Of a stretch of DNA of 64,000 nucleotides, positions 1 through 50,848 are shown piece by piece; position 1 is the first letter of the stretch, and each line of letters opens with the position of its first letter. The notes beneath the pieces are model-generated. The model worked only from the letters and a program-made list of their open reading frames with translations. It had not been told where the DNA came from and ran no database searches. The position numbers and the translations under genes were made by a program. The stretch is from Bacteroidia bacterium (lineage in GTDB: Bacteria > Bacteroidota > Bacteroidia > J057): positions 124,001 to 188,000 of the forward strand of contig JAWPMV010000005.1 of the NCBI GenBank assembly GCA_033391075.1, in the 5' to 3' direction.

Positions 1-1
1 T

Positions 2-17639: not shown

Positions 17640-17647
17640 CGCATTTT

Positions 17648-17657: not shown

Positions 17658-17696
17658 CACCTTTATATATCGGATACAAGATTTTCCAATTTTTTT

Positions 17697-17704: not shown

Positions 17705-17711
17705 TTATGTA

Positions 17712-18791: not shown

Positions 18792-18792
18792 G

Positions 18793-19143
18793 CTATTGCT
18801 GGCTTAAATCGAAGATCTTTTCCATCAATATCCATTTTTCTCCTGCTTTTGCCCAGGGAAGGCTTTGTTGAAATTTCCACATAAGCTCTTCCCACTCCTG
18901 CACTTTGGGATTGCCAGCATCCAGACGTGATTTTTCTTCGAAATCAAATTTTTCGTCTACTTCCATAATCATAAACAATCGATTTCCGGAAAGAAAAATT
19001 TCCATAGACTCGATTCCCGATGCATAAATACTCTCTTTGATTTCGGGCCAAATCGCACCGGGAGCATGATAGGCTTTGTACTGGGTGATTAGCTCCGGAT
19101 TATCTTTCAAATCCAGGCACAGGCTAAATTTTCTAGAAGGCAT
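18793..19143 (-). CDS. L-fucose/L-rhamnose mutarotase (RhaM-like fold)
   Basis: Small cytoplasmic enzyme (116 residues) that interconverts alpha and beta anomers of a 6-deoxy-L-sugar. The sequence matches the RhaM-type dimeric alpha/beta family: FSLCLDLKDNPELITQYKAYH (conserved His), IWPEIKESI, MEIFLSGNRLFMIMEVD, NPKVQEWEELMW, PWAKAGEKWILMEKIF. The CLDLKDNPELI...YH and PWAKAGEKWILMEKIF pattern is, from family knowledge, the version found with oxidative L-fucose catabolic enzymes rather than with rhamnose isomerase, and no rhaA or rhaB is present here. It is divergent from the GH92 gene across 48 bases. Confidence 0.88.
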   Translation of the reverse strand: MPSRKFSLCLDLKDNPELITQYKAYHAPGAIWPEIKESIYASGIESMEIFLSGNRLFMIMEVDEKFDFEEKSRLDAGNPKVQEWEELMWKFQQSLPWAKAGEKWILMEKIFDLSQQ

Positions 19144-19191
19144 GTTCCCTTATTTTTCCAGAAGTTAGTGTTTTTGTCAAATAGCTCGCAC

Positions 19192-27142: not shown

Positions 27143-28105
27143 ATGGATATTAACATTCCCTGGGAAGATCGGCCGGAGGGATTCGGCGATATTTTGTGGA
27201 GATACTCCCAAAATCCGGTTATCGGCCGATATCATATACCTAGTTCGAATAGCATCTTCAATAGTGCAGTCGTTCCATTCGGAGAAGGATTTGCAGGAGT
27301 TTTTCGCTGTGATAATCGCAGTGTCCAGATGAATATCCATGCAGGATTTAGTAAAGAAGGGCTCAATTGGGAAATTGAGGATACCCCTATCCAAATGCAA
27401 TCAGACCATCCGGAGATTCTCCACTCCAGTTATAAATACGATCCAAGGGTCTGCAAGATTGACGATAAATATTGGGTGAGCTGGTGCAATGGGTACTATG
27501 GTCCTACTATCGGCATTGCGTATACCTATGACTTCAAGACTTTTCATCAATGCGAAAATGCCCTTTTGCCATTTAACCGAAATGGTGTTCTTTTTCCTCA
27601 GAAAATACAGGGAAAATATGCTTTGATCAGTCGACCCAGTGATAATGGACATACCCCTTTTGGAGATATCTTTCTGAGTTATAGTCCTGACATGAAATAT
27701 TGGGGAGAGCATCGAATGGTCATGCAGGTTAGTCCGTTTGAGGAAAGTGGATGGCAGAGTTTAAAAATTGGAGCGGGTCCGGTTCCCATTTACACAGAAG
27801 AAGGTTGGCTCTTTATTTACCATGGAGTGATCAATACTGCCAATGGGTATAGATATTCGATGGGAGCGGCCATCCTCGATTTGGAAGATCCCTCAAAGGT
27901 CCTCTACCGTAGCCGACGTTATTTACTCGCCCCTGCAGAATTATATGAATTGACTGGCGATGTTCCCAATGTAGTCTTCCCTTGTGCAGCCTTGCAAGAG
28001 GGAGATAAACTAGCCATTTATTATGGAGCGGCGGATACCGTTACCGCTTTGGCGTTTGGCTATGTATCTGAGATTCTGGCCTTCATCAAAGAACATAATT
28101 TCTAA
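27143..28105 (+). CDS. GH130 family beta-mannoside phosphorylase
   Basis: Inverting phosphorylases that split Man-beta-1,4-GlcNAc, Man-beta-1,4-Glc or mannooligosaccharides into mannose-1-phosphate and an acceptor. The 320 residues form a five-bladed propeller without signal peptide, so cytoplasmic. Key segments: [34 protein letters not shown] (Asp 100 in the general-acid position), [32 protein letters not shown] and LFIYHGV (phosphate-side His). The length and the [20 protein letters not shown] pattern resemble the GH130_2 subgroup, which includes N-glycan-processing Man-GlcNAc phosphorylases. Its last 4 bases overlap the end of the convergent MocR gene. Confidence 0.9.
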
Positions 28106-29574
28106 GAAAGTTTGGCTTGTATTCCATCTCTCAGGATTCCAAAGGCCTGATCTAATTCCTTTTTAGTTAGAGAAGCAAATCCCAAGCGACAAGCATTTTG
28201 TTTTTTCCCGATTTCATTGAAGATGGTTCCGCTGGATAGAAAGAGTCCGCGTTCCAACAAGTCTTTACTCAGTTCTATCAAATTGAGTTTCTTATCAAAC
28301 TTGGTCCATATCGCCATACCACCCGCCGGTTTTCTAAAACTGAGATAGTCAGAAAATTCCTCTTCCAGAATCTGGCAGGCATAATCCCTTCTTTCCTTAT
28401 ATAGTTTCCATGATTTCCGCAAATGTCTCCGCAAACTTCCGTCTTCGATCAGATCTCCCATGCTTTGCTCTAGCACGATATCCCCTTGGCGGTCTATAAG
28501 GCGTCTCAATTTGGGAAGTTCTTTAATTACCCGTTTGGGAGCCACCAAATACCCCACCCGAAAAGCTGGAGCCAATACTTTGGTGAAAGATCCCAAATAC
28601 AAAACCCGATCTTTTTGTTCGGCACTGGCCAGGGGAAGAATCGGGGTGTTTTTATAATGGTAGTCATAGTCATAATCGTCCTCTAAAATGAGGAAGTTGA
28701 ATCGCTCTGCCAGACTTAGTAGTTGAATTCTTCGCTCAGGACTAAGGGTGACGGTCGTTGGATGATGGTGATGGGAGGTTAGGTAAATGGCCCGGATTTT
28801 TTCCTTCCGACAAAGCTCTTCTATAGCCTCCGTTTGCAAGCCATTTTCATCCACAGGCACTTTCCTCAATTCTGCTCCGAAATGTGTGAGAATGGTATTT
28901 GCCGTTTGGTAATTGCTTTCTCCTACAATCACTTTATCTCCCTTCCTGACACTAACCAAAATAGATAAGTGAATGGCCATAATCGTCCCCCGGGTAATCA
29001 TGATGTTTTCTTCATCTATATTTAGGCCCCTGCTTTCATTCAAAAGTTTCACCAAATGCTCTTTCAGCTTTTTGTTACCAGCTGCATCCGTATAGGTCAG
29101 TCTTTTCTTATGAGCTAAGTGCCTCATATTGCGCGCATAAGCCCTGGCCAATTCATCTATAGGTGCAAGCCTGATGTCGGGAAGACCATCGTCAAAAGAA
29201 AGAGGATGCTCAAAGGAATAAGGTGCCGAAAGTTCCGGGTATTCATAGAATGAAAATGCTTCTTTCCCTGAACCTTCATATGTATCCCCTTCCTGCCAAT
29301 TACTAGGAGTGGAAACAGGCAGGCTTTCAACCACGAAGGCGCCTTTATTAGGAATGATCTCTATCCAACCTATAGCTTGTAATTCCTCGAGGGCCTTTAC
29401 AACTGTATTGCGGTGGACATTGAGGCTTTGAGAAAGACTTCTGGAGCCGGGAAGCTTAGCAGAAGGCTGCAATTGACCTCGCTGAATAATCAGGATCAAT
29501 TGATTGACAATCTGAAGGAAAACCGGATGATTGGAGTTCCGATCTAATTTGATAAGATTTTTATAAGGCAGCAT
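28102..29574 (-). CDS. MocR-type regulator (GntR HTH fused to aminotransferase domain)
   Basis: 490 residues. The N-terminal winged helix of GntR type (about 10-80: [48 protein letters not shown]) joins a fold type I PLP domain (about 130-490) with [33 protein letters not shown] (PLP-binding Lys in SFTK) and a C-terminal FGILRDGI region. Members regulate vitamin B6, GABA or amino-acid genes, using PLP-bound ligand as signal. It is divergent from a PNPOx-like gene 104 bases away, a frequent arrangement that points to that gene as target. Confidence 0.92.
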
Positions 29575-29678: not shown

Positions 29679-30335
29679 ATGTCTGATTCTTATTCAATTG
29701 ATAGTAGAAATAAAGTAAAGCGAATCCCCAAACGCGGGCATTATGACCGCGAAACTGTCCATCAAATCCTGGATGCAAGTTTCCTTTGTCATATCGGATT
29801 TGTGGTAGATGGACAACCTTATGTGATTCCAACTTCTTATGGGAGAAAAGGAGATACCATTTATCTGCATGGGGCTAGTACCAGTCGGATGATGGTAAAT
29901 CTTTCAGAAGGAATCCCGGTTTGTATTACGGTTACCCATTTTGATGGGCTGGTATTGGCCAGGTCTGCTTTTCACCATTCCATGAATTATCGCTCAGCTG
30001 TTGTATTCGGTACAGCCCATTTGGTGGAAGGGGAAGAAAAAGAAGAAGGACTTCGCATTGTATCTGAACAAATACTTGAAGGTCGATGGGAAGAAAGCCG
30101 TGGGCCTAAAGCGAATGAACTGAAAGCAACCACAGTATTGAGGGTAGACATAGATACGGCCTCAGCCAAGATCAGAACAGGTGGACCGGGCGATGATAAG
30201 CCGGATTACGAGCTCCCCATTTGGGCAGGAGTCGTGCCAGCCAAAATCGTTTATGGCCAACCGGAGGCTGATCCCTTGCTTACAAAAGGGATTCCTCTAG
30301 CTGATAGTGTGAAGGATTTGCTTAAAGCTGAGTAA
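29679..30335 (+). CDS. Pyridoxamine 5'-phosphate oxidase-like flavin-binding protein
   Basis: A 218-residue split-barrel protein; the ATG at 29679 is preferred to an upstream TTG. VKRIPKRGHYDRETVHQILD and the core FLCHIGFVVDGQPYVIPTSYGRKGDTIYLHGA are characteristic of the NimA/PNPOx-related group that binds FMN or related cofactors. It is not a canonical PdxH, which has a different C-terminal motif. Probably a cytosolic flavin- or haem-binding reductase of unknown substrate. Its divergent MocR neighbour is the likely regulator. The 3' end overlaps the convergent DUF5107 gene by 14 bases. Confidence 0.87.
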   Translation: MSDSYSIDSRNKVKRIPKRGHYDRETVHQILDASFLCHIGFVVDGQPYVIPTSYGRKGDTIYLHGASTSRMMVNLSEGIPVCITVTHFDGLVLARSAFHHSMNYRSAVVFGTAHLVEGEEKEEGLRIVSEQILEGRWEESRGPKANELKATTVLRVDIDTASAKIRTGGPGDDKPDYELPIWAGVVPAKIVYGQPEADPLLTKGIPLADSVKDLLKAE

Positions 30336-33300
30336 TTTTCTCTAAGAACAAGACCAATTCGCTATTCGCAAATAGCGAATTGACTCTGCTAATCTCCTTA
30401 GCTTTTCTATCATCACCCACGAAACTTGCTGCTATCCAGCGAGTAGAAACGCTCTTTCCATGTGTACTATTGAGCAGATTATCAAGCAATTGCATAGCCT
30501 CTTTTTCTTTACCCAGCTTTCTCAAAGCTACTAAAGAGGTGAGATTATGGATGTTTGAACGCTCAGGATGCTGCATCGCATAGGCTGCGCAAGCTTCCCA
30601 ATGAGCCTTGGCTTCTTTTTCTTTGCCTAGGCTCTCATAGGCATATCCCAGGAGGTAGTCGGAGATTCTTTCATCCGGATCAAAGGGCTTACCAACGCCC
30701 AGATTCTCCGGCCATTGTTTAGAATCAAGCAGTATTTTTATTGCTTTTTCAAAAGCGACTTTTGCCGCCTTTTTATGGCCTTTCTTTTCAAGCAGTTCCC
30801 ATGCGGCATAATGATGTGCTCGCTCATAGAGTCTTCTGCCTGCGGATGCTCCTTCAAAAGGAAGTACCTGCAGGCTTTTCAATTGTGCAATGGCCTGTTG
30901 ATACAAGCCCGAATTGATCAAAGCTTCCGCATAATCCATTCCTACTGCATAATTATTCGGAAACTCTCTATGGGCTCTATCCGCCATTTTTAGGGCTTCA
31001 TCAGCCGGTTTATTTTGCTTCAAGTAAAGGTTTAAGCTCCTCCAGTTTCTCCAATCTTCTTTACCTACTTCAAAGGCCCTTTCCAAATCCACATACGCGT
31101 CTTTATCTCTCACTTCTTTCAGGATATGAGCTCGACTTTGATAAAAGGGAGCAAAATTGATCCGCGATTCTCTAGCATCTATGCCTTCCAAGAGATCAGC
31201 AGCTTTTTCTCCCCTGCCCAGACCCCATAGATTCAAGGCCAAATAATAACGAGATTTCCAATGCGTGCTTTGCTCATTCATCCACCTCAAGGCGTTTAAA
31301 CTTTCTCTCCTATAGGGAAATACCAGAGCAGGATCAGCACGCTCTATCTTCTCTGATTCTCCTTCTACTCCCAGAAAAGCTCTCCATAGATGGATCATCG
31401 GATGATCAGGCGCCAAAGCCAATAGCTGTTTGCACTCTTCCAACTGTCCCTTGTTCCAGTAATTGATCGCTAATTCCAGAAAGGTCTGATAGCGCAATTC
31501 TGATCGATGCTTTTTCAGGAATCTCTCCCTTGCCATTTCATTAGGATTATTGAGGAAACTTTCAAAAGCCAGGAAATGATTGAGTGGATCCATATCCTGA
31601 ATTTGTTGATGGCTTGTTTTCAGTAACTCATTATTTCCTTCCTTTCGAGCCAAAATTGCCAGCACTTCCCATGCATGAATATTGTAGCGGTTAAAGTCCA
31701 GGGATTTCCCTGCATAGCTTGTGGCCTTTTTATGCTTTCCTTCGCTGAGGTATATTTCGGCCATTTGTGCATAGGCATTTGACCGAAATGCCAGGGATCG
31801 AGCAGCCCATCCAAAAGCTTCCTTTGCATTGAGTTTGTCTCCTTTTGCCCGATAAGTAATTCCCGCCAGGTAATTGGCCTCTGGATGATAAGTGTCAATT
31901 TTCAACACCTTGTGAATATGCTTCAAGGCTTTCTTATAAGATGCACTACGGAAATTGAGCTCTGCCATAGCCAGATGAGTTCCTATGTGCTGCCCTTCAA
32001 GTTCTAAAGCTTTGTGAAACTTCTCTTTGGCTAAGGAGAAGTTTCGATATTTCATCTCTTCCATTCCTTGTCTATAGAGTCGCTCAACAGAATTAAGGAC
32101 CGGGCGATCCTTATCACTATCAAAAGAACGCTCTATCAGTCTATCATCAGGATCACGGGTGTAATGTAGATCCCATTCTGGCAGCTTAATTTCAAAGTCT
32201 TCTCCTTCCAGCTTAAAGGATTGCTTGAAGACCTCCATTGCTTTAAGTTTTAGTTTTTGTGATTTCAGAATATTCCCATTTTGTAGCACAGATAAATTGG
32301 CTTCAGAATCCTGGAAAGGGTGTAAAGCGATATTCAGCATCCCCTTTTCTACACTTACTGCCATAGCAGCATGTTCTGATACATCAGACAGGCCTCCGAG
32401 TTCTTTTACCGGAAACCAAAGTTCCGACCAGATATCGTGTCCGTGTGCCTCAAAGTTTGCCTGGGTGACAGGATTGACATGAGCGCCAGGGGAATACTGA
32501 ACAAAGAGGCGGCCTGCCTGGAATTCGATATACTGTCCATCCGTATCAGTGAGCAGGTCTTCCCAAATGCCTCCGGAACGAGACAAAGCCCACAACCACA
32601 ATTTTTGTCCGGGGATAGCTTCATATTCTCCCCAATGCCCAAAGCCATATCCGGCATCATGGTAGTAACCGCCAAAAAAGTCATTGAATTCGCCCACAAC
32701 ATGATAAGACTTACTAGGCCCAAAGGCATTTTCCTTATACTTTGACAAATCTCTTCCCATGGCATCATAGGGCCATGATTTGGCTTCTCCGGGATGTGTC
32801 AGGTATTGATCTCCTGGTGTGTAGAATTCAAAATCCTCTCTTGCAGGAGCAGCAGCCGTCATCCAATTGTAATAAGCCTGGCTAATTGGACTGGGATTGT
32901 ACCAATGAACTTTGGTTTCAAAGAGGGCTTTATCTTTGGGTAAAATAATCTGCACACGCCATTGAGTACGTGAGGGTAAGTCGATATTGCCGACGGTACA
33001 ACTAACACTGCCATCTGGGTGTTCTTGCATCACATAGTCCACAGGAGTAGCCGTTGAAGGATGATGCCCGATTATGCCGAAATTGAATTCTATTCCGCCG
33101 GATGTCCAGGGGCCACGCATAGAAATATTGCGAAATTTCATCACTTCATTTCGGTAGATAAATTCTTCTCCTGTGGTTTTGTCGATTGCTCCCCATACCT
33201 TACCTCCCACTTCTGGAAGGACATAAACTTCGACCAGATCATTCTCCAGTTTTACCACCTTCCATTCTTTATCTACAGCCTCTGAACTATAGCCCTCGTA

Positions 33301-33483
33301 TTTGTGATAGGGATAAATTTTGGGATTGGAGGTCAGAATGGGAATAGGATCAGGGTCTGAAAAAGGATAGGTCTTAAGCGTTCGAACTTCTTCCGTAATT
33401 TTTGCATCCTGAGCCTTGATACTCAGACTGAGAAAGGAACAAGCGATTCCTAAAAGATATGGCAGGAAAGTAGTAGCATTCAT
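30322..33483 (-). CDS. Secreted DUF5107 protein with TPR repeats
   Basis: A 1053-residue protein with a signal peptide ending SLSIKAQ. Residues about 55-350 form the DUF5107 domain (VKLENDLVEVYVLPEVGGKVWGAIDKTTGEEFIYRN, GPWTSGGIEFNFGIIGH, WYNPSPISQAYYNWMTAA), a galactose-mutarotase/GH-like beta-sandwich fold. From about 460 onward there are many TPR repeats (YRNFSLAKEKFHKALELEGQHIGTHLAMAEL and similar). Likely periplasmic. DUF5107-TPR proteins recur in glycan loci of Bacteroidota, where a glycan-binding or glycosidase role is suspected. Last gene of the leftward cluster, 34 bases after the small symporter-associated ORF. Confidence 0.85.
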   Translation of the reverse strand: MNATTFLPYLLGIACSFLSLSIKAQDAKITEEVRTLKTYPFSDPDPIPILTSNPKIYPYHKYEGYSSEAVDKEWKVVKLENDLVEVYVLPEVGGKVWGAIDKTTGEEFIYRNEVMKFRNISMRGPWTSGGIEFNFGIIGHHPSTATPVDYVMQEHPDGSVSCTVGNIDLPSRTQWRVQIILPKDKALFETKVHWYNPSPISQAYYNWMTAAAPAREDFEFYTPGDQYLTHPGEAKSWPYDAMGRDLSKYKENAFGPSKSYHVVGEFNDFFGGYYHDAGYGFGHWGEYEAIPGQKLWLWALSRSGGIWEDLLTDTDGQYIEFQAGRLFVQYSPGAHVNPVTQANFEAHGHDIWSELWFPVKELGGLSDVSEHAAMAVSVEKGMLNIALHPFQDSEANLSVLQNGNILKSQKLKLKAMEVFKQSFKLEGEDFEIKLPEWDLHYTRDPDDRLIERSFDSDKDRPVLNSVERLYRQGMEEMKYRNFSLAKEKFHKALELEGQHIGTHLAMAELNFRSASYKKALKHIHKVLKIDTYHPEANYLAGITYRAKGDKLNAKEAFGWAARSLAFRSNAYAQMAEIYLSEGKHKKATSYAGKSLDFNRYNIHAWEVLAILARKEGNNELLKTSHQQIQDMDPLNHFLAFESFLNNPNEMARERFLKKHRSELRYQTFLELAINYWNKGQLEECKQLLALAPDHPMIHLWRAFLGVEGESEKIERADPALVFPYRRESLNALRWMNEQSTHWKSRYYLALNLWGLGRGEKAADLLEGIDARESRINFAPFYQSRAHILKEVRDKDAYVDLERAFEVGKEDWRNWRSLNLYLKQNKPADEALKMADRAHREFPNNYAVGMDYAEALINSGLYQQAIAQLKSLQVLPFEGASAGRRLYERAHHYAAWELLEKKGHKKAAKVAFEKAIKILLDSKQWPENLGVGKPFDPDERISDYLLGYAYESLGKEKEAKAHWEACAAYAMQHPERSNIHNLTSLVALRKLGKEKEAMQLLDNLLNSTHGKSVSTRWIAASFVGDDRKAKEISRVNSLFANSELVLFLEKITQL

Positions 33484-33517: not shown

Positions 33518-33640
33518 TTAGTTTTTCTTCTGCTTCAAGAGTGAACGAATATTTTTAAATCCTCCTACAGCTACTATTCCTGTAGCCAGGATATACCAAA
33601 TGAGGCTGGATGCAATAAGAAGGAGCCAAAATATTTTCAT
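33518..33640 (-). CDS. 40-residue membrane protein, probable symporter small accessory subunit
   Basis: Read directly: ATG at 33640, TAA at 33518-33520. The product begins MKIFWLLLIASSLIWYILA, continues TGIVAVGGFKNIRSLLKQ and ends with KKN: one membrane helix followed by a basic tail. It starts 11 bases after the SSS symporter stop, in the same orientation, so it is almost certainly co-translated. Very small single-helix proteins directly downstream of SSS or NSS transporters are known as accessory subunits (for example MetS). Assignment rests on size, position and helix pattern. Confidence 0.68.
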   Translation of the reverse strand: MKIFWLLLIASSLIWYILATGIVAVGGFKNIRSLLKQKKN

Positions 33641-33651
33641 ATCTGCACTTA

Positions 33652-35130
33652 TTATTCTGTTTGTTTTCCGAATCGTCTTTTTGCGTGGGAAGCAGCAATC
33701 ATTGCCAGGGCCGTCAGAAGATAGGTAGCAATCCCGGATTTATATGGGCCTATTTGTTCGGCCAAGTCTGAAGTGCTTTCCATTTGCTGCAAAAGCAGAA
33801 AACTGATCGGAATAATACTTCCAACAAAGATGGCAGCCATCGCCCCCCAATTATTTGCTTTATCCCAATAGCAAGCAGCAATCAAAATTACTGACATACT
33901 CGCCAAATAAATCGTGCCCGTAACCTGCATATATACCCATAGATCTCCTTTTAGAGGATACCACAATCCATAGAGAAGTAGAAAAATCCCTATGCCAGCG
34001 ACCAACATACGGTTTACATAAAGGCTCTTTTTTTCCGACCACTGATTTTTGTGAAAAGGTTGAAGTATGTCATTGTAAATAACAGAGCTCCAGGCTAATA
34101 GATAAGAAGAATTGGTTGACATATCGGCAGCTAACATAGCAGCAACAACAATTCCCAATAAGCCTATAGGAACTTTAGCTGCAATCAGCTGAGGCATTGC
34201 CAGAATATCCTTTTCTGGTAATTCTCCGAGCTCGGAAAAGTAGTAAAAGGCAGCTATCCCAAAGACTGCGGGCAGAGCAAAACGAACGATCCAGTAAGGA
34301 GCAGTTCCAATATAGATTTTCTGGGCTATTTTGGCATTTTTCGCTGCCAATACCCTTGCAATAATGGTTTGCCAGGTAAGGATCACTGCAAAGGCAACAA
34401 GAAAATCAAGTATAACTCTATCCCAACCATACTGTCCATCAACAAAGGGATTGAAGGCTGGGGCTCCATAGCTTTCTTCTAAATGCAAGACCAGATTTTC
34501 CCACCCAAATCCAAAAATGAATAAGAGGCTTACGGAGATCAAGCCGATATTCATCATAATGAATTGCAGATAATCTGTAACCAGTACAGACAGCATTCCT
34601 CCGAGTATAGTATAAACAGCTACTATCAAGAGCAATGCCGTCATCAATATTTCCAGATAGGCTGTATCTATTCCCAGAACCAGGGTTAGGAAATCTCCTC
34701 CCATTCTGAGAAATACTCCCATATTTAGTAATCCTCCCAAAACAATGACCAGACCACTGGCCCAGCGAACCTTGCTGCCAAATTTCTGTTCAAATAACTC
34801 GGGGATGGTTATAACTCCCTGCTCTCTGAGCGGTTTTATGCAGAAGCCTGTCCAGCCTACCACAAACATCGCCAAAGCCAGAGCAATACCCGGAGTGATC
34901 CCTGCGAAACCGTATTTGTATCCAAGTTCGGCATTGGCCATACAACTTACGATTCCAAACTCAGTAGCCGCCAAAGAAGCGATCCCCAAATACAGATCAA
35001 CTTTCCGACCTGCAAGTAAATAGTCATTTACATTTTGAACGTACTTTCTGACCCATATACCAAGCGTCAAAGTACCGATGATATAGAGGACTAAAATACT
35101 TCCGTCAATATAGACATTAAAATTGCTCAT
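33652..35130 (-). CDS. Sodium:solute symporter (SSS family)
   Basis: A 492-residue, roughly 13-helix sodium-coupled transporter. The N-terminus VYIDGSILVLYIIGTLTLGIWVRKYVQNVNDYLLAGRKVDLYLGIASLAATEFG contains the family YLLAGR signature, and ILGGMLSVLVTDYLQFIMM is the usual SSS motif near helix 5. AAMLAADMSTNSSYLLAWSS near 330-350 lies in the sodium/substrate-binding helix region. It has no recognisable C-terminal kinase or other domain. It is followed by a tiny membrane protein that may be its partner and lies 42 bases after the CBM9-like gene in the reverse sense. The substrate is presumably the compound handled by the operon enzymes. Confidence 0.92.
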   Translation of the reverse strand: MSNFNVYIDGSILVLYIIGTLTLGIWVRKYVQNVNDYLLAGRKVDLYLGIASLAATEFGIVSCMANAELGYKYGFAGITPGIALALAMFVVGWTGFCIKPLREQGVITIPELFEQKFGSKVRWASGLVIVLGGLLNMGVFLRMGGDFLTLVLGIDTAYLEILMTALLLIVAVYTILGGMLSVLVTDYLQFIMMNIGLISVSLLFIFGFGWENLVLHLEESYGAPAFNPFVDGQYGWDRVILDFLVAFAVILTWQTIIARVLAAKNAKIAQKIYIGTAPYWIVRFALPAVFGIAAFYYFSELGELPEKDILAMPQLIAAKVPIGLLGIVVAAMLAADMSTNSSYLLAWSSVIYNDILQPFHKNQWSEKKSLYVNRMLVAGIGIFLLLYGLWYPLKGDLWVYMQVTGTIYLASMSVILIAACYWDKANNWGAMAAIFVGSIIPISFLLLQQMESTSDLAEQIGPYKSGIATYLLTALAMIAASHAKRRFGKQTE

Positions 35131-35172
35131 CAGGGATTAAGTATTGGATCAAAAACAGAAAGCTAAATCCGT

Positions 35173-35868
35173 CTATTCCAACAACTTAATTGTTCCAAAA
35201 GAGGATGGAATATGAAAATCAGGGGTTTCAGAATCAGGCATGATCCAGGAAATCCATTTCACCTTAATTTCCTCCTCTTCCTTTACATATTCACCCCGAT
35301 ACAAGCCGGCTTTTAATATATTCCCATCTTTCATTCCCAGCATCTCCAGTGATTTGATACTTATTGCTCCTTCCAGGATATATCCTCCTTTATAAAGAGA
35401 GGCATAAATCTGTATCCCACCTTCCGGCCAATTCCAATCTGAATCAATATTTCGATGGTATCTGCCTTCAGAGTCGTACATCCTCCCAAGCGCATCCATT
35501 TCGAGTGAATAGTAGGGATTCATCTCATCATCTGATTTGAAAAAAATCTCTACCCGATCTGAAGCTACTGCCTGCATTTCAAGAGAAAGACTGCTATCCA
35601 TTTGGGTGATTATATCCGGATCCTGGGCATTATACCGGAAAAAGAAATAGTCCTCATTCCAGAGGGCACGAAATTCTGTCTCCGGTGCTGCTTCTTCTCG
35701 CCAGGGGTAAGAGAAATTTGTCAGACTATTGGCTTCTCCCCAGAGAGGATCGTCGCCCCGGCCGCTAAGCAAAACCCCTTTGGCTTCTGTCTTTTTGACC
35801 AGATAGACATTGGGATCGATTTCCTCACAGGCAAGAAATGGCAGGAATAGCAGGAGTAGGTATTTCAT
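35173..35868 (-). CDS. CBM9-like carbohydrate-binding lipoprotein
   Basis: A 231-residue lipoprotein (signal MKYLLLLFLPFLAC, Cys 14) whose body matches the family 9-like carbohydrate-binding fold seen in DOMON/CBM9 proteins: DDPLWGEANSLTNFSYPW, TEFRALWNEDYFFFRYNAQDPDI, SDRVEIFFKSDDEMNPYYSLEMDALGR, ILEGAISIKSLEMLGM. No catalytic domain is attached. Likely a surface or periplasmic binding protein that helps capture the sugar or sugar derivative used by this operon. It lies between the creatininase-family gene (53 bases) and the SSS symporter. Confidence 0.82.
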   Translation of the reverse strand: MKYLLLLFLPFLACEEIDPNVYLVKKTEAKGVLLSGRGDDPLWGEANSLTNFSYPWREEAAPETEFRALWNEDYFFFRYNAQDPDIITQMDSSLSLEMQAVASDRVEIFFKSDDEMNPYYSLEMDALGRMYDSEGRYHRNIDSDWNWPEGGIQIYASLYKGGYILEGAISIKSLEMLGMKDGNILKAGLYRGEYVKEEEEIKVKWISWIMPDSETPDFHIPSSFGTIKLLE

Positions 35869-35921
35869 AGTAAAGGATGTAGCTCAGTACTTAAGATCGG
35901 TCTAAAGATTCAAATATCCAA

Positions 35922-36677
35922 TCAGCTGGTATAGAGGCTTGAAACAATGATTTTGAGTTTTTCCAAGATGAGTTTGCTGATTTTCTCTCCTTTTGCTTTA
36001 CTGGCGAAAGATGGATCACCATAAACGCCTCCCGGAGTCATTTGCTTCATGCTGCGAAAAAAGGAAGCTTGTGATCCATAAATCATATCTCCTTCTGCCC
36101 AATCAAAAGTTGGCTGATTTTCTTTGGGTTTTACCTTATCCAAATGGACCAGCTCAGGAGCAATTTGCAGCATCAGAGAGGTTTCGAATTCTCCGGCATG
36201 GCCAGCTCCTCCCCGCCCCGATTCATTGAGCGCTTTCAATTCTTCTATCGCCAATTTCCACCAGGTAGCAAACACCAGATTGATATCCGGATTTCTATGC
36301 CCAAATATTTCAAAGAAACTCTGTCCTATTGCCTGATTACCGCCATGGCTGTTCAGGAGAATCAGGTTTTTGAAACCATGGCGAACTACAGAGCTCGCAA
36401 TGCCTTTCAATTGTGCCAGCAAAGTTTCATGAGGCACTGATAGTGAACCTGCGAAATCCAGATGATGCTCAGAACAGCCAATCTGAATCATCGGAAGAAT
36501 AAGCACCTTATCTGGTATGGCAGTATGTAAAAGTTGGCAGAAATGCTCTCCGATCATACGATCAGTTGCCAAAGGCAAATGAGCCCCATGCTGCTCAGTA
36601 GCTGAAACTGACATGATCACCGGAATCCGCCGATCCAGTTTATCGATCTCATAGGTAGTCAATTGATCCCAATACAT
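35922..36677 (-). CDS. Creatininase family amidohydrolase
   Basis: A 251-residue cytosolic metal hydrolase. Metal ligands expected for the family are visible: SATEQHGAHLPLATD (Glu 28, His 30, His 33, Asp 39), LLNSHGGNQ and GHAGEFETSLM with the second His/Glu pair. Members open cyclic amides (creatinine) or act on formamides in riboflavin-, F420- or mycofactocin-like pathways. The operon context with an enolase-like protein, RidA fusion and aldolase suggests a lactam or amide hydrolysis step in a catabolic route, but no specific substrate can be assigned. Only one base separates it from the RidA-fusion gene. Confidence 0.87.
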   Translation of the reverse strand: MYWDQLTTYEIDKLDRRIPVIMSVSATEQHGAHLPLATDRMIGEHFCQLLHTAIPDKVLILPMIQIGCSEHHLDFAGSLSVPHETLLAQLKGIASSVVRHGFKNLILLNSHGGNQAIGQSFFEIFGHRNPDINLVFATWWKLAIEELKALNESGRGGAGHAGEFETSLMLQIAPELVHLDKVKPKENQPTFDWAEGDMIYGSQASFFRSMKQMTPGGVYGDPSFASKAKGEKISKLILEKLKIIVSSLYTS

Positions 36678-36678
36678 A

Positions 36679-37563
36679 TTATTTCTTTAAAGCCCACATT
36701 TCAATTTCAACTAAAAGAGTCATTAGCAGCGGAGTCTGAACAGCCGTTCGGACCGGGAGAGGAGTACGAAAGTAGGTTTTATAGACTTCGTTGAATCGAG
36801 GCCAATTGTCCAGGTCCGTCAGGTATACATTCACCTTAAATACATCATCGAGCCCAATGCCTGCTGTCTCCAATTGCTTTCGACAATTTTCCAGGGTAGC
36901 ATGTGCCTGGGTTTCAATATCCTCTCCTATTACAGTCCCTGAGGGGTCAATAGCAGCCTGTCCTGATATGACAACCAATTTTCCCGGATTTACTTCCAAT
37001 ACAGGAGAATAAGGTCCCGCAGTTATATGCTGGGAAGCTCCTTCCGGAGTTTGAATACCTGGTAAAGGAGAGTTTTGTTCCCATCCCATAGGATATGGCA
37101 TATAACCGGTGAATCCTGCAATTTTCCATTTCCCTTCTTCTTTGATGCATCTATACAGGGTTTGCCAGTTCAAGCGAGTTTTACTCCCATCTTTTTTACT
37201 GATATAGCCATCAAATTTTTTATGAATGAGAGCTACCGCTCCCTGAATTTCAATATCTCGCATTTGGGTTGCCTCATACAGGGCTTTCTCCGGATCTTCA
37301 GCCCATTCTTCCTGGCCAAAATCTTTTGCCTGCTTTAGCCATTCAGTTTTATAGGCTTCTAAAGTTGGGAAACTGATTTTCCAGCTATCAGGATTGTGTT
37401 TTCCCCCGGCATCAATTCCCACAAAATTTTCAGGGATAAAATCATCAGCGACCATTTCCCAACTTTCTTTACAAAAGGCAATGATGTCTCTTTCTACCAA
37501 CATATGCCATATTTGGTAGCGATCGGGATCTGATTGGGGAAAGGGGTTTTGGTAAAAACTCAT
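36679..37563 (-). CDS. NTF2/SnoaL-like domain fused to RidA (enamine/imine deaminase)
   Basis: 294 residues in two parts. Residues about 1-150 (MLVERDIIAFCKESWEMVADDFI, WQTLYRCIKEEGKWKIAGFTGYMPY) have the cone-shaped NTF2/SnoaL-like pattern with the characteristic GKWKIAGF strand. Residues about 165-294 (LVVISGQAAIDPSGTVIGEDIETQAHATLENCRKQLETAGIG, VFKVNVYLTDLDNWPRFNEVY, PVRTAVQTPLL, VEIEMWALKK) are a complete RidA/YjgF domain, including the conserved Arg in PVRTAVQ. RidA hydrolyses reactive enamines or imines. Fusion to an NTF2-like domain suggests a pathway-specific, substrate-channelling version. Its ATG overlaps the enolase TGA (ATGA), giving translational coupling. Confidence 0.82.
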   Translation of the reverse strand: MSFYQNPFPQSDPDRYQIWHMLVERDIIAFCKESWEMVADDFIPENFVGIDAGGKHNPDSWKISFPTLEAYKTEWLKQAKDFGQEEWAEDPEKALYEATQMRDIEIQGAVALIHKKFDGYISKKDGSKTRLNWQTLYRCIKEEGKWKIAGFTGYMPYPMGWEQNSPLPGIQTPEGASQHITAGPYSPVLEVNPGKLVVISGQAAIDPSGTVIGEDIETQAHATLENCRKQLETAGIGLDDVFKVNVYLTDLDNWPRFNEVYKTYFRTPLPVRTAVQTPLLMTLLVEIEMWALKK

Positions 37564-38690
37564 GAATATTCTTTTTCAGTTTGAAGGTAATGTCTGATAG
37601 CATCCATATCGGGTTCAACTCCTAATCCTTTCCCTTCCGGGAGATAGACATAGGGAGGCTCTATTTTCAGGGGTTCTTTCAACAAATCATGGCTACGTAT
37701 CAATCGACCAAATATATCTCCAGGCCAAATACAAGATTCTGCTGCCGCACAGGAATGCACATACATGGCTTCAAGAATTCCCAGGTCTATCTCCGATCCA
37801 TGCCAGGAAGGAAGACCTGCTGCATGGGCAATATGGTCGAGTCTTTGGAAGTTGGCCAGACCGCCATTGAAGTTGAAACCGTCAACAGCTGCATGTTGAA
37901 TGGTTTGTATGCTGTCTTTGATTCTTTGGCCGTGAAGGATGTAGGGCAATGAAACGTGCAGGACAATGGGAACCGAGCTAAAATTGCGCAATCTTGCATA
38001 TTCGTCCAACATCCATCTGGGTAAGGGATCTTCCAGACAAAGCACATTGCCCACCTCTGCCAAAGCAGCAGCTCGCTTACGCACTTCTCCCGGATATAGC
38101 CAACGTTCATTGGGGTCGAGTATGACCTGCATGCCAGGAGCTGCTTCATGTATCGCTTTACACCAGGCTTCTACATCATCGTCCAAATCTGTTTTGAATT
38201 TCACACAGTCATAGCCTTGCTCCGCAAAGCCTTTCGCCAAATCTCCAATTTCCCCTAACTCCCGATGACTGGACCAGGCTCCTACACGAATCTTCTCTTG
38301 CACAGGCCCTCCCAGTAGATCAACGACCCTCAAATTATGGGCCTTTGCATAAGCATCCCAAATCGCGCATTCAAAACCATCGTATTCCCGGCAAAAAGTA
38401 AAGGGAAGTTTCTGTAAGCTTAAATTTCGGATATCCTGTCCAAGCAAAATATCTATGATACTTTCTAGCTGCTTCCAATTATGATCCCGGTACAATTCTC
38501 CCCAACCGACAATTCCATTATCCAATTCCATCCTAAGGATCAGCTTGGGAAGTTCATCAAACTGCAAACTCCAGCCGGATTTAGCGCCTACTGGCAGTTT
38601 ATGCAAGGGTTTGTTGATGGTCTTGCTTTGAATACTGCCTGGATGAGCAGGAACAATGACCTCATAGCAATTGAAGCGCTTTATCTTCAT
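37560..38690 (-). CDS. Enolase-superfamily protein, mandelate racemase/dehydratase type, atypical active site
   Basis: 376 residues from ATG 38690, chosen because an earlier in-frame ATG would run back into the upstream SDR gene. The capping domain and barrel are intact. The first-acid KxK motif is present (VKFKTD, Lys 164 and 166), as are two metal ligands, ILDPNERW (Asp 192) and LEDP (Glu 220), and the barrel His (SWHG, His 297). By comparison with mandelate-racemase-group dehydratases, the third metal Glu is replaced (PIVLHVS where PxxTGE is usual) and the Asp of the His-Asp dyad is Asn 275 (GFNFNGG). Dehydratase or epimerase function is therefore uncertain. L-fuconate dehydratase is possible by context but the usual residues argue against assuming it. 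Confidence 0.8.
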   Translation of the reverse strand: MKIKRFNCYEVIVPAHPGSIQSKTINKPLHKLPVGAKSGWSLQFDELPKLILRMELDNGIVGWGELYRDHNWKQLESIIDILLGQDIRNLSLQKLPFTFCREYDGFECAIWDAYAKAHNLRVVDLLGGPVQEKIRVGAWSSHRELGEIGDLAKGFAEQGYDCVKFKTDLDDDVEAWCKAIHEAAPGMQVILDPNERWLYPGEVRKRAAALAEVGNVLCLEDPLPRWMLDEYARLRNFSSVPIVLHVSLPYILHGQRIKDSIQTIQHAAVDGFNFNGGLANFQRLDHIAHAAGLPSWHGSEIDLGILEAMYVHSCAAAESCIWPGDIFGRLIRSHDLLKEPLKIEPPYVYLPEGKGLGVEPDMDAIRHYLQTEKEYS

Positions 38691-38700
38691 AGGTGCATGA

Positions 38701-39492
38701 TTATTTTCCTTCAATGAAATCTCGATTATGCAGCATAATGGTCGTTCCGGCATCCACATATAAGGTTTGTCCTGTTACGGATGCGCTCATTTCAGATATA
38801 AGGAAGGCAGCCACATTTCCGCAGTGTCTCGGAAGAATAGGTTCAGGAATGGCTTGCTGATAATTGACAAAATCGGATAGATACTGATCGGGGTCTTCGT
38901 TCCAGTTCTTGATCAGCTCATAATTCTGCTCTGCATGAACCAGACCTGGCCCTAGCGCATTTACCCGTATACCTTCCTTGCCGAGTTCATAAGCCATTCC
39001 TTTGGTCAAACCTTCAACTGCATTTTTAGCACTACAGTAAATCGCAAAACCCGGTTGGGTGGAATAAGCATGGACGGAAGAAATATTGACGATGCTAGCT
39101 CTTTTGCCTTTTCCTATCAATTGCCGCACAAAAGCTCGAGAAACATACCATACGGCTCGGATATCGATACTATATAATCTGTCAAAGTCCTCAGGTTCAG
39201 CCAGATGTGCTTTCTTACTTAAACCAACTCCCGCATTATTTACCAAAGCTGTGATGGTACCCACCTCAGCTGCTATTTGAGCAAACATGGCATCCACTTC
39301 CTCATCTTTGCTGATATCAGCTACAATGGCGAGGGCATTGGGATATTTTTTTGCAGCTTCTTGAGCTTTCTCAGCATCTACATCATTGATGATGAGTCTT
39401 GCTCCCATTTCGGCAAGCACCTCGCAAACTCCTCCTCCCACTCCCCATCCTGCTCCGCCTGTGACAAGTACACTTTGATTAGCTAAGTTCAT
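38701..39492 (-). CDS. SDR family oxidoreductase
   Basis: A 263-residue classical short-chain dehydrogenase. VTGGAGWGVGGGVCEVL is a slightly unusual cofactor loop with extra glycines; NDVDAEKAQ after the second strand carries an Asp that favours NAD. NNAGV, NISSVHAYS and the catalytic YCSAK tetrad are all present. It probably oxidises a sugar acid or hydroxy acid. It lies between the RraA-like gene (20 bases) and the enolase-like gene (10 bases). It could be the 2-keto-3-deoxy-L-fuconate dehydrogenase of the locus, or belong to the separate pathway of this operon. Confidence 0.88.
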   Translation of the reverse strand: MNLANQSVLVTGGAGWGVGGGVCEVLAEMGARLIINDVDAEKAQEAAKKYPNALAIVADISKDEEVDAMFAQIAAEVGTITALVNNAGVGLSKKAHLAEPEDFDRLYSIDIRAVWYVSRAFVRQLIGKGKRASIVNISSVHAYSTQPGFAIYCSAKNAVEGLTKGMAYELGKEGIRVNALGPGLVHAEQNYELIKNWNEDPDQYLSDFVNYQQAIPEPILPRHCGNVAAFLISEMSASVTGQTLYVDAGTTIMLHNRDFIEGK

Positions 39493-39512
39493 GTTGTTTT
39501 GTTTATGAGCGA

Positions 39513-40205
39513 TTACATGATGCCAAATTTTTTAAACGCTTCAACAGCTCCCATTCCATTGATGATGGCTTTTTGCACCAACTTCTCCCCTTCTGCTTTC
39601 TCGATAGCGAGTCGAATGATTTCTTCCTCAGCCTCTTGCGGAATGATGCATACTCCATCCCGATCTCCAAAGACCAAATCCCCTGGCTTGATCTTAACTC
39701 CATTCATTTCAATTGGAACCCGGAAGTCAATCACCTTGCCTCTCGGCCCCTGGTCTTGTGCATAACTGCCATAGGAAAAAGTTGGGAAATTAAGATCTAA
39801 TATGCCATTTGTATCTCGGACATAGCCATCCAGGACGGCACCTGCTGCACCTAGTTTGAGTGCCCTTGTGCTCATGAGTTCGCCCCACAAAGCATAAGTC
39901 GGAGAAGATCCCGTACAGATATATACCTCATGCCTTTTGAGGTCATCCAGTGCCTCCAGCATCAAGCCAAAAGATTTTTGCATAATTGGGTTGACAGAAG
40001 CAGAGGAAATTTCTTCGAAACAATCCGCTTCCAGTACTGGCATAGCACGCCCGACCAAACGCATGTCTGAACGTAAAGGCTGGATTTTAGGACTGAGAAA
40101 TTGATGAAGGAGGCCCAATTTATCCATTACATCTCCGATTACGGCAGAGAATAATTTCTCCTTCATAAGCAGGATGAGCTCTGAATCATTTTTCCAAGCG
40201 TGCAT
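39513..40205 (-). CDS. RraA-like aldolase/decarboxylase family protein
   Basis: 230 residues. The conserved core GELMSTRALKLGAAGAVLDGYVRDTNGI and the later FGDRDGVCIIP match the RraA/HMG aldolase family, including the Arg-Asp pair (VRD) that binds carboxylate substrate and metal. Class II HMG/CHA aldolases cleave 4-hydroxy-2-oxo acids to pyruvate and also decarboxylate oxaloacetate; RraA proper regulates RNase E but lacks the catalytic Asp. The presence of VRDTN and GDRDGV favours an enzyme. First gene after a 190-base gap, so probably the head of its own transcription unit. Confidence 0.85.
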   Translation of the reverse strand: MHAWKNDSELILLMKEKLFSAVIGDVMDKLGLLHQFLSPKIQPLRSDMRLVGRAMPVLEADCFEEISSASVNPIMQKSFGLMLEALDDLKRHEVYICTGSSPTYALWGELMSTRALKLGAAGAVLDGYVRDTNGILDLNFPTFSYGSYAQDQGPRGKVIDFRVPIEMNGVKIKPGDLVFGDRDGVCIIPQEAEEEIIRLAIEKAEGEKLVQKAIINGMGAVEAFKKFGIM

Positions 40206-41988: not shown

Positions 41989-43065
41989 TTATATATATTT
42001 TTGAATAATCTCTGTGAGTTCTTTTTCCTCGGCTAATATACGCTTACAAAGGTATAATTGGGCCTTTGCGCGCTGAAGATTTTGGCCGGCGAAGTGGGTT
42101 TTATAATAAATGTCTCCCTCTAGGTAATCAGTGAGGAATCGAATGCCCATCAAGTAAGCAAATAAAGCCCCGGAAACTGCCAGCAATTCGATTTCCTTTT
42201 CGCCTAAACTTTCCCGAGTCTCAGCTAAAAAACCAGCAGCGAAAGCTTCAAAGCGTTCCATATCCAACACTATCTTTTCCAAATCTTCTTCATCTTCCGG
42301 AGCGGTGCAGACTGTGGTTCTGATTCCATCTCCAAAATCATAATGCACATAGCCCGGCATGACTGTATCCAGATCGATAACACATCGACCCTTACCTCTT
42401 TTCGTCAGAAGCACATTATTGAATTTGGTATCATTGTGGGTAACCCGCATGGGTATGAGCCCTTGCTCTCCTGCCTTCTGAATTCGGGATACACTTTCTG
42501 TAACCGAAAAAGCATAATCAATGAGCTCTTTACATTCCTTTACCCTATTCACTTTATCCTCCTCAACAGCTACCCTAAGATTTCTTATTCGAAAGCCGAC
42601 ATGATGAAAATCAGGAATGGTATCAACCAGCTTTTCAACCGGAAAATCCGCCAGGCTTCGCATAAATATCCCAAAGGAACGGGCTCCTTCAAATATTTGT
42701 TCAGGGGTTTCTGCAATATCATAGGAAATCAGTTCACTTTTGAAATCAAACATTCGCCAATAACATCCTTCTGAATCTCTGACAAAGGGTTTGCCCTTTA
42801 TACTTAAGATTACTTCCAGACTTTCCTGATCACTCTCTTTAGCAAAAACCTCCTCAAGATGCTGACAAACCAAATGGATATTGTTCATCATCCCATCCAC
42901 ATCTTTGAAGATATGATGGTTGATCTTTTGGAGCAGGTAGTCTTTGCCGCAGGTGTCTTTATTTATTAGGCGAAAAGTTTCATTGATGTGCCCGCTACCA
43001 AAAGGAAGAGCTTCTTTTATCTCTCCCTTGATCTGAAAACAGTTGATCAATGATTTTATATCCAT
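41989..43065 (-). CDS. Sugar kinase of the phosphotransferase (APH) fold, NahK-like
   Basis: 358 residues. FGSGHINETFRLI near the N-terminus and LLQKINHHIFKDVDGMMNNI resemble N-acetylhexosamine 1-kinase (NahK), which phosphorylates GlcNAc or GalNAc at C1. The catalytic loop is RVTHNDTKFNNVLL (HNDxxxxN) and the metal Asp is in VIDLDTVMPGYVHYDFGDGIR, both in close agreement with NahK-type sequences. Such kinases in Bacteroidota often sit with sulfatases and esterases in glycan clusters. Substrate inferred, not proven. Confidence 0.82.
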   Translation of the reverse strand: MDIKSLINCFQIKGEIKEALPFGSGHINETFRLINKDTCGKDYLLQKINHHIFKDVDGMMNNIHLVCQHLEEVFAKESDQESLEVILSIKGKPFVRDSEGCYWRMFDFKSELISYDIAETPEQIFEGARSFGIFMRSLADFPVEKLVDTIPDFHHVGFRIRNLRVAVEEDKVNRVKECKELIDYAFSVTESVSRIQKAGEQGLIPMRVTHNDTKFNNVLLTKRGKGRCVIDLDTVMPGYVHYDFGDGIRTTVCTAPEDEEDLEKIVLDMERFEAFAAGFLAETRESLGEKEIELLAVSGALFAYLMGIRFLTDYLEGDIYYKTHFAGQNLQRAKAQLYLCKRILAEEKELTEIIQKYI

Positions 43066-46388: not shown

Positions 46389-47225
46389 TCAGGATCGGGT
46401 TCCGACTTTATTGACTAATTCGCCAATACCGTCAATCTTAATATAGATCATATCTCCTTCTTGCAAGGTGAAAGTTTCATCAGGAACCAGGCAGGTTCCT
46501 GTCATCAGGAAACAACCTTTGGGGAAATTGCATTCGCGAAATAAATAACCCACCAATTCCGTATGACTTCTTTTCATCATACTTATCTGGACCTCGTCTT
46601 TATACATGCTTTCGCCAGCCCTGATTATTTCCATTTGTATCAGCGTATCTGGCGAAATGGGATGTTCCGTAATATATAAACAGGGACCCAGGCCTGCACA
46701 TCTTTCATAGGTTTTGGCTTGAGGCAGGTAGAGCGGATTTTCTCCTTCGATGCTCCTCGAACTCATATCATTTCCGATGGTATATCCCTCTATGCTTCCA
46801 TGGGAATTGCAAAAGAGAGTAAGCTCCGGCTCAGGCACATCCCAGCTCGAATCCCGTCGAATATTTACCACATCTCCTGAACCAACCGTCCGGGCTGCAG
46901 TAGCCTTAAAAAATATCTCAGGTCTTTCGGCTTCATACACGCGATCATAAAAATCACCTCCTCCGGCTTCTTCTGCTTCCCGCATTCGCTCCTGTTTACT
47001 TCTCAAATAGGTAACGCCCGCTGCCCATACTTCCTGCCCTCCTATGGGTGGCTCTTTGCCCAATTTTGGTTTTTCATCCAACTCTTCCCAATTCTGCACA
47101 TCGGATGAAAGGAAAGCAAAAAGTCCTTTGCGGTTTATCAATTGATCCCAATCCATATCCGATCGGCGATACCAATTGCCCTCTTTTTCAAGAATGGCAG
47201 CTTCTTCGTGTTTATATAGTCTCAT
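46389..47225 (-). CDS. FAH-family hydrolase, probable 2,4-diketo-3-deoxy-L-fuconate hydrolase
   Basis: 278 residues. The catalytic fumarylacetoacetate-hydrolase core is intact: [51 protein letters not shown] with the metal Glu pair, and [25 protein letters not shown] (metal Asp). In oxidative L-fucose catabolism an enzyme of this family splits 2,4-diketo-3-deoxy-L-fuconate into pyruvate and L-lactate. The neighbours FucP, lactonase and SDR support that role. Its start overlaps the last 14 bases of the upstream sulfatase. Confidence 0.85.
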
Positions 47226-48729: not shown

Positions 48730-48763
48730 GTATAAAGAAATTGAGGAAAGTATTCAAGGGAAA

Positions 48764-50026: not shown

Positions 50027-50049
50027 TGTAGTAGTTTATAGCAAATCCG

Positions 50050-50847: not shown

Positions 50848-50848
50848 A

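Follow-up and report, generated by a model that had tools for sequence, protein, structure and literature searches.

An enolase, RidA and creatininase-family gene cassette with a proposed role in oxidative N-acetylhexosamine breakdown

Introduction

Catabolism of the usual amino sugars, N-acetylglucosamine (GlcNAc), N-acetylgalactosamine (GalNAc), N-acetylmannosamine (ManNAc) and N-acetylmuramic acid (MurNAc), starts with phosphorylation, according to PMC9537276. The same source describes an oxidative system, the Ong pathway of Pseudoalteromonas prydzensis ACAM 620, which uses oxidised chitin. Here, a sodium:solute symporter (SSS) serves as importer, and N-acetylglucosaminate (GlcNAc1A) is converted to 2-keto-3-deoxygluconate (KDG). 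The enzymes named there are OngB, a deacetylase related to D-aminoacylase, OngC, a deaminase dependent on pyridoxal phosphate (PLP), and KdgK. OngD, a RidA protein, is essential for growth on GlcNAc1A and is given as having an unknown role (PMC9537276). In this work, we analysed an operon of eight genes at positions 33518-40205 of a 64-kb stretch of DNA from a Bacteroidia bacterium. We refer to the whole stretch as the window, and coordinates are positions within it. The window is part of a 529-kb contig (C5) in a genome of 9.49 Mb and five contigs (G000). We propose, with a probability of about one half, that the operon contains a cassette by which an N-acetylhexosamine (GlcNAc, GalNAc or ManNAc), or its aldonic acid, is broken down oxidatively and without phosphorylation. 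Note that we infer every reaction and substrate in this scheme.

The cassette and the Ong pathway both have an SSS transporter, an amide hydrolase, a RidA protein and deamination to a 2-keto-3-deoxyaldonate, this last being proposed in our case. The differences lie in the enzymes. The cassette has a creatininase-family hydrolase and an enolase-superfamily protein, rather than OngB and OngC, and an RraA-like protein where the Ong pathway has KdgK (one related locus, L061, has both). In addition, RidA is fused to another domain, and a short-chain dehydrogenase/reductase (SDR) suggests oxidation inside the cell, not by a lytic polysaccharide monooxygenase. No OngC-type PLP deaminase or OngB-type D-aminoacylase is encoded among the eight genes and, in a search for a KDG kinase, no PfkB protein was found among 30 window open reading frames (ORFs) scanned. 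Hence, the cassette would work like the Ong pathway but is not a member of it. A literature search returned no description of this gene set among the matches listed. Non-phosphorylative pathways for acid sugars that use enolase-superfamily dehydratases, such as those for galactonate and fuconate, presumably also run through a dehydrogenase, a dehydratase, a 2-keto-3-deoxy acid and an aldolase. However, the cassette substrate would bear nitrogen and need an amide hydrolase and RidA, and its enolase has histidine at the position of the third metal ligand.

Results

The original prediction, made from the sequence of the window, described the eight genes as closely packed and likely to form one unit, and named a survey of gene neighbourhoods as its check, with a lack of conserved association as the outcome that would speak against it. 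We ran this survey and found a conserved association. The 36 loci surveyed (L-numbers below) comprise 34 from a contig scan with two enolases, one from Embleya (L033) and one from genome G171 (L004), and gene content was counted by tblastn. Note that the enolase is present in 36 of 36 by construction, and that L004 holds only its N-terminal part. All five core genes, encoding RraA, SDR, enolase, the RidA fusion and the creatininase-family protein, occur together in 20 of the 36 loci. For the 25 loci with enough flanking sequence (2.5 kb ahead of the enolase and 3 kb past it) the figure is 16. Individually, RraA was found in 24 of the 36, SDR in 28, the N-terminal domain of the fusion in 30, RidA in 29 and the creatininase-family protein in 28. 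Accessory genes are less frequent: SSS in 13 loci (eleven at at least 64%, one at 34% and one a distant symporter) and CBM9 in 8. Among the 25 flanked loci, RraA is missing from 7, SDR from 4, the N-terminal domain from 3, RidA from 4 and the creatininase-family protein from 3. These losses are spread over L041, L044, L046, L051, L058, L059, L060, L065 and L068.

The titles of the loci name Saprospiraceae, Lewinella, Flavobacteriaceae (Ulvibacterium, Flagellimonas, Arenibacter, Flaviramulus), Chitinophagaceae, Cyclobacteriaceae, Bacteroidales, Thalassotalea, Bauldia and Opitutales, among others. Since most loci are contigs of metagenome-assembled genomes (MAGs), an isolated outlying title could stem from misbinning. 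The Bauldia MAG (L064) has the enolase and no other core gene, and its sequence stretch ends about 300 bases past the enolase. When plasmid records were searched by tblastn with the RidA fusion, one record had the complete fusion (with 80% or more of the query at a single place). This was Embleya sp. NBC_00888, of the Actinomycetota, at 53% identity, and the fusion there is surrounded by SDR, RraA, enolase (59-60%) and creatininase-family genes. Correlations were found between the distance matrices of the five core proteins (r 0.58-0.86, from 19-27 shared loci without Embleya), and none of 1000 permutations gave as high a value for any of the 10 pairs. The SSS matrix correlates less well with the core (r 0.47-0.57). 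These correlations, compared among cassette proteins only, indicate a common history, which may be vertical. The enolase was found in none of 12 other genomes of the same family (1e-60) and in none of 394 other genomes of a class sample (1e-70). In a phylum sample, the full RidA fusion occurs in one of 394 other genomes, G171. The cassette is rare and patchy, and horizontal spread is the likely cause of this distribution.

Three further observations were made in the survey. First, L004 (G171:C70:129104-132931) has an in-frame deletion at 1495-2706, so that the enolase breaks off after its first ~111 residues and the reading frame carries on from residue ~20 of the RidA fusion. The junction is at a shared Ile-Trp and reflects decay or assembly collapse; the enolase barrel was not found elsewhere in G171, where there is only a 29% paralogue. 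Second, L068 (Arenibacter sp. F26102), at 9941-12434, holds a decaying cassette beside an intact MFS gene: the enolase lacks its middle, the creatininase-family gene is shortened and a RidA remnant is separate. Third, glutamate synthase genes lie beside four flavobacterial cassettes (L048-L050 and L066). The small-subunit-type domains came from the scan and the large subunit was judged from sequence. We take this as shared ancestry and not as evidence.

In the window, all eight genes are on the reverse strand, with intergenic gaps of 11, 42, 53, 1, -4, 10 and 20 bases from the micro-protein gene to RraA. Given this spacing, and the recurrence of the set in distant bacteria, we conclude that the eight genes form a real operon and one functional unit, at the place originally given. 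The family names assigned at that time (RraA, SDR, enolase, RidA, creatininase, CBM9 and SSS) are likewise backed by Pfam.

The enolase-superfamily protein exceeds the cut-offs of both PF13378 and PF02746. Its AlphaFold model has the enolase fold (predicted TM score 0.90) and all 50 Foldseek matches listed are enolase-superfamily structures, with no clear winner. The best among those listed is 2zc8, an N-acylamino acid racemase (E 7.3e-25, 23% identity). As in other members of the superfamily, there is a capping domain, a modified TIM barrel and a pair of invariant beta-2 lysines (K164 and K166). Also invariant in 34 aligned cassette enolases, a set that leaves out the broken gene of L068, are D192, N194, E220, H245, N275 and H297. 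In profile alignments to PDB sequences, H245 corresponds to the Asp of the 'ADES' motif. Positions 245-246 are His-Val/Ile in the cassette enolases and DE or GE in ten comparators (nine other G000 enolases and one from G171). Hence, where beta-5 of the superfamily presumably provides a third metal ligand, Asp in the muconate-lactonizing type or Glu in the mandelate-racemase type, sequence alignment places a histidine instead. This His may be the third ligand. Note that glucarate dehydratase, we assume, has Asn at this site, so that known members are not strictly acidic there. The catalytic beta-6 Lys of the muconate-lactonizing and N-acylamino acid racemase subgroup is replaced by N275 in the window and in all 9 cassette enolases sampled; the ten comparators have Asp (7), Lys (2) or Asn (1) in this column. 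Because of the residues at 245-246 and 275, the enolase looks to be of neither the standard mandelate-racemase nor the standard muconate-lactonizing type. D270 and H297 were considered as a His/Asp pair of the mandelate-racemase kind and rejected, since the alignments put N275, not D270, in the beta-6 catalytic column. We propose that the enzyme is an N-acetylhexosaminate dehydratase.

Of the label 'NTF2-RidA fusion' in the original prediction, the RidA half is supported. The Rid domain scores 92.7 bits against PF01042 (cut-off 27.3) and its modelled fold aligns with RutC at Z 17.4 (125 residues, 2.1 A; VIA-align). The column of the active-site arginine, R272 in PVRTAV, is conserved in at least 90% of 29 rows. 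The score against TIGR00004, 82.5 bits, is below the cut-off of 106.25. The NTF2 assignment was not established. The N-terminal domain is a confident, separate alpha+beta unit in the AlphaFold model, and none of seven such domains gave a Pfam match over cut-off. Among sub-threshold hits, DUF4440 (E 0.051, with one unfused relative) was equalled or exceeded by the unrelated DUF1133 (0.0056) and DUF6014 (0.0076). By eye, the order of helices and strands is compatible with an NTF2-like fold; fold-search lists obtained with the whole fusion were filled by RidA. The N-terminal domain is fused to RidA in 28 of the 36 loci. It occurs without any RidA in L044 and apart from the decayed RidA in L068, and on Rhizobiaceae plasmids (L034, L035 and L036) the two are separate, adjoining genes. 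This pattern of fusion and fission suggests that the N-terminal domain and RidA act on the same intermediate. We propose that the fusion is an imine/enamine hydrolase. An unfused relative (36%) lies at 1495-1965 of L005 (G261:C1:1714002-1717460), between NeuB and an Epimerase_2-like gene that resembles UDP-GlcNAc 2-epimerase, below cut-off. This is a biosynthetic setting.

The creatininase-family protein scores 207.9 bits against PF02633 (cut-off 31.3). E28, H30, D39 and H111, which we take to be metal ligands, are invariant in 26 aligned sequences, L068 being left out. The score against TIGR04448, for creatininase in the strict sense, is 93.4 bits (cut-off 235), and the protein is also below the cut-offs for IolN (66 bits, cut-off 245) and MftE. 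By these scores, it is a relative of creatininase and not a creatininase. We propose that it deacetylates an acetamido intermediate. The genome contains a second creatininase-family gene, at 1501-2202 of L002 (G000:C1:5275658-5279359; PF02633 8.9e-54). In RraA, the motif G127-x-x-R130-D131 is invariant in 18 aligned sequences, comprising the window and 17 of the 21 found (L040, L049, L050 and L056 are left out). Aldolases of the RraA type cleave 4-hydroxy-2-oxo acids, and retro-aldol cleavage of a 2-keto-3-deoxyaldonate is the proposed reaction. For the SDR, we propose C1 oxidation of an N-acetylhexosamine. An N-acylmannosamine dehydrogenase of the SDR family is known from Flavobacterium; this enzyme is absent from the 27 PDB matches of the cassette SDR at 1e-25, and the papers listed in a literature search for it yielded no sequence.

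Solved relatives of the SSS protein include SGLT1, the symporter 5nv9, which we take to be a sialic acid transporter, vSGLT-type proteins and choline transporters. We propose that it takes up the pathway substrate. The 40-residue micro-protein gave no Pfam family match. The 'micro-subunit' originally suggested is nevertheless a recurring feature: by eye and position, a one-helix ORF of 42-53 residues directly follows SSS in 10 of the 12 loci with SSS there. Note that some of these ten loci are close relatives. The micro-protein does not follow SSS in L038, the sequence of L047 ends at this point, and there is none in L063, where an MFS gene replaces SSS. Using tblastn, the window micro-protein found a match after SSS in three loci (L059, L062 and L066). 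The micro-protein is proposed to be a small partner of SSS, and is possibly an undescribed small symporter subunit.

Clues to the substrate come from neighbouring genes. Upstream of the operon, a kinase matches the N-acetylhexosamine 1-kinase (NahK) structure 4wh1 (E 2.3e-71), with no NCBIfam match, and in L046 a 33% NahK-like relative comes immediately after the enolase. In L063, the MFS gene that takes the place of SSS has NagP as its best NCBIfam model (362 bits, cut-off 625). Glycoside hydrolase family 20 (GH20) is found beside L052 and, by clustering, L054; GH109 is beside L052, L038 and, by clustering, L060. In L061, a PfkB gene starts 1 base after RraA. Its best model is KdgK (286 bits, cut-off 400), with 88.5 bits for the next best, which argues for a product like 2-keto-3-deoxygluconate. 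The best KdgK match in G000 had 57.7 bits and no strong one was found. Hence, direct aldol cleavage is plausible there. In L061, a Thalassotalea MAG, the cassette is also closely followed downstream by a TonB receptor gene and a gene of the tryptophan-halogenase family (14965-19277). The original prediction envisaged an amino- or lactam-bearing sugar acid. The amino-sugar part is favoured, by the neighbourhoods only. We saw no gene arguing for a lactam ring, and the amide hydrolase has a simpler explanation in an ordinary N-acetyl group on a hexosamine acid.

The run of genes on the same strand is longer than the operon (Table 1). Upstream, past 190 bases, it continues through an aldehyde dehydrogenase (ALDH), the kinase, an esterase, sulfatases and a fucose-type module, to 51679. 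In a scan of these 190 bases for a separate promoter of RraA, no Bacteroidota -7 motif, which we take to be TANNTTTG, was found. The ALDH has no tblastn match in the 36 loci and is hence not a core member; possibly, it acts on released glyceraldehyde or lactaldehyde. The fucose-type module, with its two sulfatases, suggests that the whole locus feeds on a sulfated, fucosylated glycan bearing N-acetylhexosamine. Downstream, a 34-base gap precedes a DUF5107-TPR protein. In L046 a relative of this protein immediately precedes the enolase, and in L037 and L039 relatives lie downstream of the cassette, making it a possible operon member. Its PDB relative, 5cd6, carries no name beyond TPR-domain containing protein, and a literature search on DUF5107 gave no paper with that word among the matches listed. 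Note that the enolase start, 38690, was set by homology; the longest ORF starts at 38759.

Table 1. Genes of the operon, domains of the RidA fusion and other features of the window
Feature	Length	Position	Strand	Evidence or remark
RraA-like / class II pyruvate-aldolase family protein	230 aa	39513..40205	-	PF03737 1.9e-32
Short-chain dehydrogenase/reductase (SDR)	263 aa	38701..39492	-	PF13561 adh_short_C2 8.7e-52
Divergent enolase-superfamily protein	376 aa	37560..38690	-	PF13378 MR_MLE_C 1.9e-29
RidA fusion, two domains	294 aa	36679..37563	-	PF01042 Ribonuc_L-PSP, residues 181-292, 2.1e-26
Fusion, N-terminal alpha+beta domain		residues ~1-160		possibly NTF2-like
Fusion, RidA domain		residues ~165-294
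Creatininase-family metallohydrolase	251 aa	35922..36677	-	PF02633 2e-61
CBM9-like protein, probable lipoprotein	231 aa	35173..35868	-	PF06452 CBM9_1 1.4e-19; lipobox-like start by eye
Sodium:solute symporter (SSS)	492 aa	33652..35130	-	PF00474 SSF 1e-37
Single-helix micro-protein	40 aa	33518..33640	-	position after SSS
Aldehyde dehydrogenase (ALDH), 190 bases upstream of RraA		40396..41976	-	PF00171 1.4e-53
N-acetylhexosamine 1-kinase (NahK) homologue		41989..43065	-	4wh1 E 2.3e-71 over 342 residues
DUF5107-TPR protein, 34 bases downstream of micro-protein		30322..33483	-	PF17128 1e-127
GDSL esterase half and SASA (sialic acid acetylesterase-type) half in one protein	539 aa	43141-44760
Fucose-type module: FAH, SDR, amidohydrolase_2 and MFS genes, with two sulfatases		46389-51679
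GntR-aminotransferase fusion		28102-29574		nearest PLP protein in window, outside operon
Protein with ThuA, DUF7133, HEAT-like repeats and plastocyanin-type copper domain	1171 aa	52713-56228

Discussion

We propose the following route. SSS and the micro-protein would import the sugar, and SDR would oxidise C1 to give the lactone or N-acetylhexosaminate. Proton abstraction by the enolase superfamily is carboxylate-dependent and needs an acid. Acting on this one, the enolase-superfamily enzyme would take water from C2/C3 and leave a 2-acetamido-2-enoate. RidA requires an imine or enamine, which could come from the action of an enolase on a 2-amido acid: the creatininase-family metallohydrolase would free acetate to give the 2-amino-enoate (enamine/imine). 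The fused RidA would hydrolyse this to a 2-keto-3-deoxyaldonate and ammonia, its N-terminal domain possibly handling an unstable intermediate. Finally, RraA would cleave the product to pyruvate and glyceraldehyde. N-acetylhexosaminate is the simplest molecule that uses all five enzymes. As far as can be judged from sequence, the enzyme families fit the elimination, enamine hydrolysis, amide hydrolysis and aldol cleavage first suggested for this operon. More tentatively, this may be a new N-acetylhexosamine route present across several phyla. Here, a metal-dependent enolase-superfamily enzyme with a His third ligand would replace a PLP enzyme as the source of enamine, and RidA, fused to a new domain, would be a dedicated enzyme and not a damage-control one.

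Several observations weigh against the proposed route. Among the 25 flanked loci, RidA is absent from L044, L046, L051 and L058, and the creatininase-family gene from L046, L059 and L065. Hence, the steps of the missing core genes may be supplied elsewhere or may not be essential. L046 has only the enolase and the NahK-like gene. Correlated distances can also result from a shared species tree. Amino-sugar neighbours occur in a minority of loci and were partly chosen by eye. Of 142 neighbours in 29 loci (those without L004, L033, L043, L045 and L064, without L068, which has no full enolase, and without L047, which has no neighbour), 117 were tallied, the other 25 being 24 proteins of more than 690 residues and one truncated 529-residue piece. 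The commonest family in this tally is Gfo/Idh/MocA (12); it also contains 6 further SDRs, 4 sulfatases and only 3 GH109_C. The KdgK-like and NagP-like matches are below their cut-offs and, for the L063 MFS gene, gluP (glucose/galactose) passes its own (277 bits, cut-off 202.55). The genome has a nagB match above cut-off, consistent with the ordinary route. NCBIfam and PDB matches do not single out a substrate for the SDR, and the creatininase-family protein could instead be a lactonase. Lastly, close homologues with a measured activity are not known to us.

A plasmid cluster in Rhizobiaceae (L034) is among the nearest known systems. The same domain (57% identity) is found beside RidA, a D-TA-type PLP enzyme, an M81 hydrolase, SDR and a MurR/RpiR regulator; L035 and L036, also from Rhizobiaceae, have the N-terminal domain, RidA and SDR too. 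In this cluster the domains are unfused, the PLP enzyme and M81 replace the enolase and creatininase-family protein, and no RraA relative was found at 1e-5. The PLP enzyme could make the enamine, and the cluster looks like an intermediate form.

The steps could also run in another order, with amide hydrolysis first. The creatininase-family protein would then deacetylate N-acetylhexosaminate, the enolase would take free hexosaminate and RidA would complete deamination, as with OngB then OngC. The PLP enzyme of the rhizobial set, given what we assume of PLP chemistry, would act on a free amine. Deacetylation also precedes deamination in the Ong pathway (PMC9537276). The order of genes, with the enolase followed by the RidA fusion and then the creatininase-family protein, does not argue for this version, and we regard it as unlikely. 

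In a second alternative, the creatininase-family protein would be a lactonase acting on the C1 lactone that SDR produces, and deacetylation would take place elsewhere or fall to the N-terminal domain of the fusion. One member of the family, IolN, hydrolyses a sugar-derived ring; the cassette protein has the weak match to it given above, and the cassette is without another lactonase candidate. However, aldonolactones presumably also open without an enzyme, and the cassette would be left with no other candidate deacetylase. We consider this improbable.

The acid degraded might be another amino-bearing one: N-acetylhexosaminuronate, a hydroxylated amino acid or, as originally suggested, a lactam-bearing sugar acid. 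Any N-acyl beta-hydroxy amino acid would suit the RidA, creatininase and enolase families, and the specificities of SDR and SSS leave room. Nonetheless, the NahK, NagP-like, KdgK-like, GH20 and GH109 neighbours fit N-acetylhexosamines, with no lactam-specific gene seen, so the odds are low. 

Least probable by far is a role in the adjacent fucose-type module, in which the enolase would serve as the missing L-fuconate dehydratase and the SDR as the missing 2-keto-3-deoxy-L-fuconate dehydrogenase. While the 30 window ORFs scanned include no second enolase-family gene, and an FAH protein, an amidohydrolase and an SDR lie upstream on the same strand, RidA and the creatininase-family protein would have no task, 9 further enolase-superfamily genes are present in G000, and homologues of the window's lactonase-type amidohydrolase and FAH occur in 0 of the 36 cassette loci (1e-15). 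We therefore rejected membership of a fuconate pathway. The poor fit to ordinary fucose catabolism, suspected from the outset, thus holds, and the cassette is independent.

Hence, we return to oxidative breakdown of an N-acetylhexosamine as the preferred interpretation, with the cassette as a proposed second, enolase-based solution to oxidative amino-sugar breakdown. If this is true, bacteria would have arrived at two unrelated oxidative solutions, one using a metal enzyme where the Ong pathway uses PLP, and the picture of amino-sugar catabolism as phosphorylation-first would widen. RidA would gain a dedicated metabolic step. The route would also explain annotations that are now scattered as RraA, creatininase and mandelate racemase.

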